Assembly (NCBI RefSeq): GCF_008831285.2
Contig: NC_045144.1
Span: 24,939,716 to 25,003,715 of the forward strand
Source: Nymphaea colorata
Taxonomy: Eukaryota > Streptophyta > Magnoliopsida > Nymphaeales > Nymphaeaceae
Reading direction: 5' to 3'
Length of the DNA stretch: 64,000 nucleotides
Positions 16,591 through 61,440 of this stretch are shown here, one piece after another. The notes beneath the pieces were generated by a model. It did not search any database and had not been told where the DNA came from. It worked only from the letters and a program-made list of their open reading frames with translations. The translations under genes were made by a program, and so were the position numbers. The number at the start of each line of letters is the position of its first letter. Position 1 is the first letter of the stretch.

Positions 16591-17094
16591 ATGTCTCAAA
16601 TCTCATATAACCTCTTTATAATCTTTAGGATGGCACCTGAGGATCAAACACCAAGAGCCTTCAAGGAGGTAAATCCAGAACTCACTGAATCAGAATGTCA
16701 AGAGTTCATCCAAATAAGAAAGCAAGATCAACCGTCACCTTTGATTAATGATCCAATTGAGGAAATTAACATTGGCACGAAAGAGAATCCAAAGATTTTG
16801 CAAATCAAAACAAGTCTCTCAGCAGAAAAAAGAAAAGAGTTGAAAGACTTCCTCAAAGAGCATCAAGTAGCCTTTGCATGGACTTATGAGGATATGCCAG
16901 GACTCAATACAAAATTAGTAAAGCATCGACTACCATTGAAACCAAAATGCAAGCCAATCAAACAAAAATTGACGAAACTAGACCCACGTCTTAAATGACA
17001 GGTTAAGGAAGGTCTAAAAGACCTACTAAAGGTAGTCTTCATCCGAACAATTGACTATCATGAATGGTTAGCAAACATTGTGGTCCTAGTTGTT
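16591..17094 (+). mobile_element. Ty3/gypsy pol fragment (protease-RT linker and start of RT)
   Basis: The open frame to 16998 reads like the stretch before the reverse transcriptase domain of plant Ty3/gypsy elements: NIGTKENPKILQIKTSLS, then KRKELKDFLKEHQVAFAW, YEDMPGLNTKLVKHRLPLK and a KPIKQKLTKL block. A TGA at 16996-16998 interrupts it. The same frame then continues as VKEGLKDLLKVVF...DYHEWLANIVVL to about 17091, where the homology stops abruptly at the start of the duplicated cluster. Catalytic RT motifs, integrase and LTRs are absent. It is a truncated, inactive fragment. Confidence 0.85.
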
Positions 17095-19560
17095 TGAATC
17101 ACCAATCATCATGAATCACATGACTGGTTTTGCCAAAGTGGTCGATAGAATGCGTATTGACAACTAGATGAAAGACTTTCATGGTTGGTCGACTTATGTT
17201 TCTTAAATTTTTTCATTGGTACTAGTTGGGAAGCTGAAAGTCTTACCCTTCCCCATCCCCAATTGCACGTGATTGCTTTCGGTGGTTTGGGATCAGCGTC
17301 GAGGCCTGCGCATCGGGCTGGCGCGGCCCGACTCCCGAAAATCGAGTTCAGGCCCGAGTCGAAACCCCACATCCAAGCTAGTGCCCAGTTTGGTTAAAAC
17401 AAAATGAAAATTAATATAAAATAAAAAATTTTAAATATAAAAATATATTTTTAATAATAAAATATATATCATTATTAAATACAAATTATATTAAAAAATC
17501 AATTGGGCCCGATGCACAAGCTTAGTCCTGTTGTGCTTTTCATTGGTACTAGAGATTAAGGCGGAATTTGGTTGACATCCTTCTCTAACCCATTTTTGTA
17601 AAAACTAGCTTTTAAGAAAACCAAGTTTTTTAATAAGTTTTAGAAACTTTGTTTTTATGTTTGGTGACACATCCAAAACTTGATTTTGAATAGCTTATGG
17701 GGGGATCAGGATTCTCACACTCTTTTACAAACCCAGGTTTTCTTAAAAGTGTGTTTTCTTCAAACCAGTTTTGATGTTCTTTATAGTCCCTTTACCCATT
17801 TCAATCTCCACAGCCATCAAATGAGTCTTCTATAACGAAAACAGTTCCAACTTAATTATTCGGGTGTGAGATATTAAGTTTGGAGCACACATCGGACCTA
17901 TCAAGTTATCATCTCATGGAGATGCAACATGGATGGTCAATGGATCGTGGATAACTCATCAGTGACCCATTTTGAAGACAGAATCTGCAGAAAGAAAAAA
18001 AAAAGAAAAAAAGAAAACAGGCCATATGCATGAGTGCCACGAAGGCAAAACGTCAAGAACATGGGGAATGGGGACTAAAATATGGGCTGCTTGCAGCCCG
18101 TATATATCGCGTGTCCCATTTTTCCAGGAATGCCATGGCGGAACGTTCTGTCCTCGCTTATTCTCTCCAAGATAGCAGATAGTAGCTCCCAGCTCCGTGG
18201 GACCGTGGGTACCATTAGTACGCAACAAAAATAAGAGAAGTAAATGTCAAAATTATATTAAATTTTGTAGAAAATGTGATATTGATAAATAAAATTTATA
18301 TACGTCGATATGAGATGAAAAAAAAAGTTATTTGTTTGTTCTCAGCTTAGCTCGGTAAAAAGTTTGGCCTCTCTAAATCCTTTAATTTGGATATTTTTAA
18401 AAATTCTTTATCATGTATACTTATATTGGATCTATTATGAGCCTGACATTTAGAGAGCAATTTAATTCATTTGGAAACTTTTAATTTTTTTTGAAGCGGT
18501 GAAAAATTTTCCTTTAGGTAATTGGCGTTTAGAATTGTTTACAATAAAATAGAAGTTGGCATTAGCAATTTAGATGCTTAACAAATCTTAGATTTCAAAC
18601 TTTTCCGGTTTTCATTTCCGCTACCTTTTTTTTCCATATAGCTTTATTTCCTTTAACGTTTTTCAGGTCATTTCTAGTAATTATGTGTAATTTGTCGTTA
18701 TTTCTGGTTATTTCATACTTCCTATATAATTAAATTTACACCCGTAGACGGTAGACAATTTATTTCCACTCACATTTGGGTTTGCGTAACTGTTAAACAT
18801 TTGCAATGAAGAAACATTGAGTTAATAATGCATATGAACTTGGCGACATAAAAATTTTTCATTAGAGAGGACAAACAAAGTTTAACAAGGGCTACAATTA
18901 CTTTTAAGATTTTATATAACCTAAATGATTTTTTTTGTTAAATTACATGTATTTTTTTTTTTAAACTGTAGGGACATCATGGCAACCTGAATATGACCTA
19001 GCAAACCATATGATGGGAGTATCCAATGGCACATGCTCATGTAGGCTTTGCAGATTTACATATAATCCTTCATTGTATTTATTAGTAATTCATTTATTTA
19101 TATATTGTGCCCCTCAACTATTAACTTTTTAAAGGTTCTGTGCTTCAATCAGAAATTTCGACCACCACCTTAGATGTAGTAGGGTTCGACTAAGCCTTCT
19201 TCCGAGAAGATGCTTGAAGGGAGGCAAGCAACTGGCATATCCTTTCGACCCAACTTCTTCTCAACTGTGAGAAGCGCCGACACCAACACTGTAGACACTG
19301 AGGAAAGACATTGGGCGTACTGTTCATAAACCAAACTCCAACTTAGATTCACATTACAAATTACAATGAGAGAAGAGACAAAATGATTGTGAAGAGAAGT
19401 CGCAGAGAAATAGGAATGGAAAGGAATGCAAAACGAAATAAACAAACAACAACAAAAGGAGGCATCTTAAAGAGGCAATACAGTATAACGTAAACTAAGT
19501 ATGCAAGTTGAAACTGAAAAAGAGAGAGAGAGGTGGCACAATGTAGCACCACATTTTAAT
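17092..19560. repeat. Intergenic U unit (copy 1), 3' flank of S1
   Basis: No gene. This unit recurs at about 22170-24140, 31950-34230, 37373-40140, 42700-44350 and 55680-58180. Landmarks in order are TTTGAATCACC near the start, GGTACTAGTTGGG, a GC-rich GGCCCGAC patch, a stretch rich in AAAACCAAGTTTT-like words, CATCGGACCTATCAAGTT, GGATGGTCAATGGAT and ATGGGCTGCTTGCAG. A tail follows that begins near GGTAATTGGCGTT. ORFs inside it are not conserved between copies. Confidence 0.75.
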
Positions 19561-19612
19561 GCCAATAACATTCAAGGGGAGCAGTGCTTCGTAAACATCA
19601 CCGCAGCAAGCA

Positions 19613-20082
19613 CTAAGCGTAGCCACACATGCCATATAGGCAGTAGGACCCCTTACGGCACTTGTTCCCGCATCTCCCGCAGTTCTTTCTGTCGAACGCC
19701 AGATTCACGCACCTCCCCTTGCAGCACGTCTTCGTGAACCTGCACCTCCTCCCACATTTGCCGCAGTTGAGGCGATCGGTCTTCCGATCCACGCACTTCT
19801 TGTGGCAGCAGTCAGGGCCAGGGCTTCCCTTCAGTTTGCAGATCTTCCGTTTTTTGTCGCACCTTTGCGGCTTCCAGGATCTGGCCAGGTACCGGCGCAG
19901 TCCGAGCGACGGCAGGTCGCCAGAGTAAGGCTCCTCCTCGGCGGTGGGGTCCTCACTGCCGCCAACTACACCTTCCTCTGGTTCCTCGTGTTCTTCGTTG
20001 CGGCTGGGAGTGTCGTGGATGCGACCACCAAAATGAGAGCCCCGATGACTGCTGCTGTTAGGAGTAACCGTGGTGCGGCCAT
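19613..20082 (-). pseudogene. S1: STIG1-like protein, type I, one-base frameshift
   Basis: Same gene as S5 (40197-40667) but one base shorter: a G is missing next to 19997 (TTCTTCGTTG against TTCTTCGGTTG). The frame is lost after about residue 29, just behind the signal peptide. The downstream frame is intact to the stop and encodes the acidic propeptide, the motif YSGDLPSLGLRRYLARSW and the 16-cysteine STIG1 domain ending YGMCGYA. STIG1-like proteins are secreted cysteine-rich proteins, known from pistil secretions. The surrounding 2 kb is full of single-base losses relative to the S5 copy, so the frameshift is more likely a sequencing error than a real mutation. Confidence 0.85.
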
Positions 20083-59576: not shown

Positions 59577-59584
59577 TTTATATA
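59577..59584 (-). promoter_or_regulatory. TATA box of S7
   Basis: TATATAAA on the minus strand about 130 bp before the ATG, in the same place as in S3. Confidence 0.6.
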
Positions 59585-59645
59585 GGCAAGTTGGGGGATG
59601 TAGTGTTAATAAGGATCGCATTGGACTTACACTGGACTTGGACAT

Positions 59646-61440
59646 GCATTGGTATCAGTGACCTGAAATCACGTAAAAGTAATTTGATGATCTTAAGTCA
59701 TGTTTTGATGTGTTAAGTAGCTCATGACAAGACTGTTTCTGCAGCAAAATACATAGCATCATCGGATTTGGGTCTAGTGCATGAAAATCTCATCTAGTGC
59801 ATGAAAATCTCATACCAAAAGTTCATTAATATTTAACTGCAAAATAGCCTTCCTATTATCATCATTTAAATTTCAAACAACAAACATCTACAAAATATCC
59901 CTTGTATGCATTATCCTTCATCTAAATTTCAAACTACAAATATTGTGGTTCTTTCTTTTTTTGAATTCAGTTAGAGATTTAATTCCATTGACGCAAATGT
60001 CACTGTTTTAAGGGAAAAAATGAAAAAAAAAGGTGAGCACTAACTAGCCCAATTATGTGTTTTTCATACGGAATGTTGCTATAGGTGTTACTGTTCAACT
60101 CTCAAATTCACCGTTAGCTAGCCCTAAAGGGCATAACATAGTTGATCGGGTAGGTGGTTGCATAAAAAGGTATTTTCAATTTGATTCTTGTACGTGTTAC
60201 TTTAAACAATGGAAATGTGATATTCTCTTTGACGAGTGTGCCGTACCTTATCTAAGTTCCGAAACAGCACAGAACCCAGCAGGGGAAAAAAGACAACCTT
60301 TGAAGTTCTTTTCCTGACTAAGCTCACTTGAAAGGGCAGGTACGGCTATATATATATATATATATATATATATATATATATATATATATATATATATATA
60401 TATATATATATATATATATATATATATATATATATATATATATATATATATAGGGGGGAAGAAAGAGAGATTATGTGACTGATGATGCAAATGTGAGCAG
60501 GTTATAGTGATCATATGTTATTCTTTTTGTCTATATACTCTAAATTTGCCGGTCAGTGCTGTCGAGTTCGATCCCCTTAACATAGCACATAACACAAGCG
60601 CACACCCCCCTACTACCACACAACGTAAGGGGTTTTAATTGGATTAAATGCTAGCATGAGGACACTGCATCTTTTGGGATATATTTTACAGCTTGCCTTA
60701 CAATCAATATTGCTCTACCCCAAGCGTAATCTTATACACATGTTTAAGATTTCATTGAGAAATTAAATAAATGTAGTATATTACGATCTACGCCATTCAG
60801 ATGTATTCGATCATTTTTATTCTCAATCTCATTTACTTCTTAGTTTAATGGTTTATTCGTATCATACTCTTTCTTATGTCCAAAGTATACGTACGTGCAA
60901 TTAATGGCGATCCAATTAATTTCATATTTAATGGTTTGATGCAGAAGAAAAAGCGTTCTTTTTGGAGCAAAGCATGAAGATCCTTAAGTGGAATGCACTT
61001 TATTGTTCTGAGACTCTTAAAGATAAACATTTTAAACTCCTCATATCATGCTTACACATGGCACGGGAGCACATGGATAAGTAAATTATTAGAAGATTTT
61101 GCTTGTCAATACGTTTTCAATGATCCTTCTCCTCTTGCCACCTCCACCAAATTATCTTCTTTAAAAAAAGAAAATCTTATTGAAAATGTACTTTTGAAGT
61201 AATAATATGTGTAAGAAGTGTAATCTATTCGACTAAATGGGTCGATGTAGTTCATGAACTTTATGTTCCAAAATCTATGTAATACTCTTAGATGCTGAGT
61301 TCCATACTTTTAATTGGATCTATATATTACAAATTGGTTACTTATATAAAGATTATTCTAATTTTAAAACTAGTTAAGTTACACATAATTATATCAATGA
61401 AAGTTATACAAGGTTAGCCAATTGGGTAAAGAAGTTATAT
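59646..61440. other. 5' flank of S7, no other gene
   Basis: Counterpart of 35118-36520, with a long TA tract inserted and about 350 bp of extra sequence around it. Open frames at 60057-60317 and 60993-61202 are not conserved in the paralogous copy. Confidence 0.6.
60347..60452. repeat. (TA)n microsatellite, 106 bp
   Basis: The longest simple repeat in the window; absent from the paralogous position near S3. Confidence 0.95.

Follow-up and report, generated by a model that had tools for sequence, protein, structure and literature searches.

A mixed tandem array of STIG1 and X8 genes on chromosome 7 of Nymphaea colorata, probably divided in the assembly by a scaffolding error

The window analyzed here, 64,000 nucleotides of Nymphaea colorata chromosome 7 (assembly GCF_008831285.2, NC_045144.1; C7:24939716–25003715), contains genes of the STIG1 (PF04885) and X8 (PF07983) families interspersed with copies of a repeated element that we call U. 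The features are named in Table 1, and positions without the prefix C7 are those of the window. We consider it likely that the window is the right-hand part of one tandem STIG1/X8 array shaped by repeated unequal exchange and partial gene conversion, and that C7:16.82–16.99 Mb and the contig carrying the window's genes are a single locus, the 7.96 Mb now placed between them reflecting a scaffolding error.

An earlier note on this DNA had proposed a dot plot of the window against itself, and a self-comparison of that kind recovered two modules, 17086–36517 and 37617–61433, with matches reaching 4.4 kb at 97%, far above chance. The collinear chain between them covers 15,841 of 19,431 bases. The recurring order of U, STIG1 and X8 described in the note stands in that the two intervals are collinear, but S3, S4 and X8A are broken and its parts recur many times outside the window. 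Self-comparison and alignments also confirmed that, within the window, the STIG1 genes lie on the minus strand and the X8 genes on the plus strand. The statement that the same module occurs twice proved too simple. In substitutions alone, the modules diverge by 0.7% at 17.1–21.4 kb, by 3.8–3.9% at 21.6–25.3 kb and then by 7.3–23.2% depending on the piece, and this stepped divergence indicates that they do not derive from one event. When 17 blocks were compared with C7:16.81–17.01 Mb and with the window plus 30 kb to its right, 13 had their nearest copy in C7:16.82–16.99 Mb and not in the partner module, which was nearest or equally near (to 0.1%) for the remaining four (S1, S5, and the U copies of S5 and X8B).

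A profile search of the genome (408 Mb) returned at least 47 matches to PF04885 and at least 47 to PF07983. After merging, the STIG1 matches form at least 40 loci, 36 of which lie on C7 at 16.50–16.99 or 24.956–25.32 Mb. Part of this region consists of a 16.9-kb unit, with copy 1 starting at C7:16951714, copy 2 starting at C7:16968621 across a sharp junction (C7:16968621–16968625), and a third copy beginning before the gap at C7:16993616. Copies 1 and 2 differ by 17 substitutions in 16.9 kb, copies 2 and 3 are nearly identical, and the unit in the window differs from copy 2 by 15 substitutions in 13.4 kb, none of them in the first 6 kb. Past 29821 only the window copy continues, into an older flank that it has in common with C7:16.8676 Mb (93.8%). 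Near-identical copies of S2-S3-S4, of X8B and of the S5 unit each occur elsewhere in the array. The copies are direct and share an orientation, and a unit junction is present, as in a tandem array. The earlier claim of linkage and co-amplification of two unrelated families is thus borne out, and the tandem units with their sharp junction favor unequal crossing over, which the note had also offered, as the best mechanism.

On this model, the direct repeats formed by U and the genes would pair out of register, and unequal exchange, which we infer because of the unit junction and the common orientation, would add and remove units, while gene conversion would partly even out the copies. A comparison of the S1 and S5 units found 31 substitutions, 15 of them up to 17472, 11 from 21150 onward and five in the 3.7 kb between. 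This clustering at the edges (26 of 31; p = 1.4e-12, with boundaries set after inspection of the data) is the pattern that a homogenized tract around the STIG1 gene would leave. U copies fall into three groups with 99–100% bootstrap support, according to whether they stand before S1-type genes, before X8 or before S3-type genes. Because the copies group by place, the module order seems to be older than the latest duplications.

The evidence for a misjoin comes from the contig ends. The contig that ends at C7:16993615 has 4.6 kb in common with the window contig, with one substitution and 92 one-base absences, and such absences are clustered near both contig ends. C7:16993615 is followed by a gap of 2600 N, by pure (CCCTAAA)n for 2500 bp (C7:16996216–16998715) and by a further 5000 N (gap region 16993616–17003715). 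On the plus strand, CCCTAAA marks the left end of a chromosome; the first and last 1.5 kb of C7 contain no telomere run. In C2, N at 2301–2500 runs directly into telomere repeat (read from 2301 onward), and for this reason the gap of 2600 N may consist of a 100-N join and a pad of 2500 N. Genome-wide, the telomere pattern was found 5865 times in the forward and twice in the reverse direction (the first places listed are 11 at C1:34.96 Mb, the rest at the C2 start), so the assembly may lack the right ends of chromosomes. At the other breakpoint, the 100-N join at the left of the window is its only run of N, and none follows up to C7:25033715. It appears that about 7.96 Mb was wrongly inserted into one array, and that a scaffold with a chromosome end was placed inside it.

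Two real arrays 8 Mb apart on one chromosome, formed by a recent long-range duplication, would explain why both pieces are present in the assembly, in equal orientation and with different surroundings. We regard this as unlikely, however, given that one breakpoint carries telomere repeat and N gaps and the other a 100-N gap, that the contig ends have a near-identical 4.6 kb in common, and that one-base absences cluster near both ends. It is very improbable that the window contig represents the alternative haplotype of the C7:16.9 Mb array, retained in error: stretches of 13.4 kb at 99.2% identity and 7.9 kb at 98.5% would fit, but the 13.4-kb part lies to the right of the S2-S3-S4 match in C7 and to its left in the window, U(X8B), S6, U(S7) and S7 differ by 4–11% from their nearest copies, and the search for a second full copy of the 5-kb right-flank piece of the window contig (40 of 5212 candidates scored) found none in the genome, which speaks against a leftover haplotype.

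Several observations weigh against a single array split by a misjoin. The 4.6-kb overlap alone is no proof of adjacency, as unit copy 2 is equally identical there, and the telomere piece between two N gaps could be a stray contig. Another, short inner telomere run occurs at C1:34961659–34961811, and among the first 300 bases of 12 other contigs, 11 are ordinary sequence without telomere and one (C5) is all N. The left side of unit copy 1 carries 54 substitutions over 5.4 kb relative to copy 2. The U copy preceding S7 belongs to none of the three groups, and U copies of the X8 class at C7:16.881, 16.885 and 16.894 Mb have no assigned adjacent X8 gene.

The STIG1 genes of the array are in part sound. 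Against a gathering cut-off of 24.1 bits, PF04885 scored 101 for S2, 101 for S5, 99.9 for S6, 90.4 for S7 and 62.9 for S3; S1 and S4 were assigned through alignment and the genome search. The cysteine-rich domain is complete in S2, S5, S6 and S7, and in S1 past its frame break. S3 ends at a TGA (34485–34487), and the frames of S4 are broken. Nine of 17 STIG1 loci are sound, with an open frame and a whole domain (C7:16.868, 16.878, 16.910, 16.958 and 16.975 Mb, S2, S5, S6 and S7), or ten if S1 is counted; this tally treats S1 and C7:16.992 Mb as a single locus and covers the loci from 16.81 Mb through the window. The gene at 16.878 Mb has lost the usual stop and gained 18 residues. In the cysteine-rich part, the ratio of nonsynonymous to synonymous change (dN/dS) is 0.10–0.47 for pairs with at least five synonymous changes, one saturated pair being left out, and by this measure the intact copies are constrained there. 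Ratios above 1 are confined to the N-terminal part, which by eye is hydrophobic, and mostly involve at most one synonymous change, and we therefore rejected positive selection. The pair formed by the 16.878 Mb gene and S6 has three synonymous and 12 replacement changes in that part (ratio 1.45). Just to the right of the window, a 351-residue frame on the minus strand (C7:25004489–25005541) carries five consecutive STIG1 domain stretches (Pfam, 251 bits) and a repeat of about 165 bp.

The frame break in S1 is a special case. Relative to the S5 copy, 17086–21445 carries the 31 substitutions and lacks 73 bases, of which 55 fall in runs of at least two. The absences look like unpolished sequence near a contig end, and the S1 frameshift is probably a sequencing error; a real pseudogene was rejected on the grounds that one-base absences are dense around S1 and substitutions few. 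In 18250–19500 there are many one-base absences and almost no substitutions relative to the sister copies, and gene models in this interval may look falsely broken.

Among the X8 genes, PF07983 scored 60.2 bits for X8B and 40.6 bits for the X8A fragment (gathering cut-off 25.7), and the copies have exons of 64, 29 and 240 nt in common (exon 1 is 63 nt at C7:16.934 Mb). X8 domains contain six conserved cysteines, and two of the nine array loci (C7:16.827 and 16.840 Mb) are sound and retain all of them; in the 16.827 Mb gene no GTAAG donor closes exon 3, and the frame continues to a stop. X8B has five of the six cysteines and ends in a TC/TA repeat or in SYGNLL-stop, and we describe it as resembling the X8/CBM43 family without filing it as a sound member. 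Both lesions of X8A (Table 1) recur at C7:16.9656 and 16.9825 Mb. At C7:16849851–16855468, an insertion of 5.6 kb splits exon 3 of an X8 gene with flanks that match X8B at about 99% identity. Exons 1 and 2 of the 16.865 Mb copy were not found, and the 16.934 Mb copy has a one-base deletion in exon 1. The copies encode a single X8 domain after a hydrophobic N terminus, and no glycosylphosphatidylinositol-anchor region was seen in them by eye.

These results suggest that X8 is likely a mere passenger in a STIG1 array, the STIG1 genes being kept and the X8 genes mostly carried along and decaying, although this part of the mechanism is the weaker one. Against it, sound loci make up 9/17 of STIG1 and 2/9 of X8, a gap that falls short of significance (p = 0.22; 0.11 with S1 included), and the copies do not represent independent cases; duplication has also affected broken STIG1 genes (S3 with C7:16.9149 Mb, S4 with C7:16.9174 Mb); some X8 lesions, for example the single base at C7:16.933 Mb, could be sequencing errors; and dN/dS between X8B and the 16.934 Mb copy is 0.21. 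It is possible, if improbable, that the STIG1 super-cluster (36 of the 40 loci found, plus the five-domain poly-STIG1 gene) is a fast-turnover recognition locus, for pollen–pistil or pathogen recognition, under concerted evolution, and that it captured X8, which was briefly useful and is now being lost. Co-selection, the other explanation raised in the earlier note, would have STIG1 and X8 kept together for joint work in pollen–pistil walls, with the module selected as a unit. The nine X8 loci, the U classes that suggest an order predating the latest duplications and a dN/dS below 1 in most X8 pairs are compatible with it. We found no positive support for it, however, and hold it to be quite unlikely: a dead X8 gene of the X8A type was amplified, only two of the nine X8 loci are sound, and 21 of the 47 STIG1 matches found have no X8 match within 20 kb. 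Among the 47 X8 matches found, nine lie within 100 kb of a STIG1 match, and 38 are at least 299 kb from any or on contigs free of STIG1.

U itself is probably non-coding. Eight U frames were scanned and gave no Pfam match above the cut-off (one frame had two weak matches below it), and Rfam found nothing in the window at gathering scores; on these grounds we rejected U as a coding gene or an RNA. U includes about 210 bp of dispersed repeat. The long U matches listed, with 40 scored out of 520 candidates, all fall within the two pieces of the array on C7. To the left of the first U, a 135-residue open frame (16591–16998) gave no Pfam match above the cut-off; it resembles a piece of a Ty3/gypsy polyprotein.

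Table 1. Features of the window in positional order
Feature	Position	Strand	Remarks
100-N scaffold join	16391–16490		contig carrying the modules begins at 16491
Third (last) tandem copy of 16.9-kb unit, U-S1-U-X8A	16491–29821	+	15 substitutions/13.4 kb vs copy at C7:16972127
U downstream of S1	17086–19154	+	without coding sign
S1, STIG1	19613–20082	-	frame broken by one missing base near 19996–20001, probably sequencing error
U, X8 class	21727–24158	+	
X8A pseudogene	25942–27041	+	lost acceptor before exon 3 (26801); in-frame TAG 26969–26971
S2, intact STIG1	30253–30723	-	156 residues; PF04885 match
U, S3 class	31459–34228	+	
S3, second-type STIG1	34485–35117	-	truncated by TGA; last two cysteines lost; identical lesion at C7:16914895
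S4, STIG1 remnant	36978–37423	-	broken frames; near copy at C7:16917402
U downstream of S5	37369–39719	+	
S5, intact STIG1	40197–40667	-	PF04885 match
U, X8 class	42248–44362	+	
X8B, open frame	46833–48131	+	without sixth cysteine; exons 46833–46896, 47090–47118, 47686–47926, putative short last exon at 48111
1-kb direct duplication downstream of X8B	48182–50247	+	48182–49180 vs 49244–50247, 92.7%
S6, intact STIG1	52811–53281	-	PF04885 match
U before S7	55398–58176	+	most diverged copy, outside the three U classes
S7, intact second-type STIG1	58977–59645	-	PF04885 match

Tandem STIG1 clusters are known, and the mixed STIG1/X8 array and the probable misjoin are new; no paper in the open-licence literature contains both "STIG1" and "X8 domain", and broader searches say little here. 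On Populus chromosome 4, tandem Stig1 repeats lie in one interval in two species, and the listed Stig1 genes have Ka/Ks values of 1.00–1.31 (PMC7297788). The likeness to the present array lies in the tandem STIG1 repeats. The Populus case differs in that the accessible text of that report mentions no X8 genes, whereas here X8 genes are interleaved and the cysteine-rich part is mostly constrained.

STIG1 of tobacco, petunia and tomato is described as promoting pollen-tube growth, and GRI (Arabidopsis GRIM REAPER) as a secreted protein of similar kind that has been tied to cell death (PMC7059789). The comparison is by family assignment, PF04885 matching here under the same family name, and by analogy the STIG1 proteins of the array may be secreted cysteine-rich signals of pistil or stress. 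X8 proteins bind callose, PDCBs being examples in the text available (PMC6627144), and the sound X8 proteins of the array would by analogy do so as well. Ole e 9 and the PDCBs, as far as these sources describe them, resemble the array copies in having a single X8 domain after a hydrophobic N terminus, and differ in that here X8B is missing the sixth cysteine and X8A is a pseudogene. The sound X8 protein at C7:16.827 Mb matches PDB 2JON at an E value of 6.9e-20, with its last cysteine aligned to that structure, which we take to be the C-terminal domain of Ole e 9.

The assembly of a chromosome can fail at a near-identical tandem array, and here this has apparently left a telomere inside chromosome 7. 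STIG1 counts and synteny in this genome could therefore mislead, with two arrays where there is probably one. The array would also illustrate how a gene can be swept into the amplification of its neighbor, with pseudogenes copied along.

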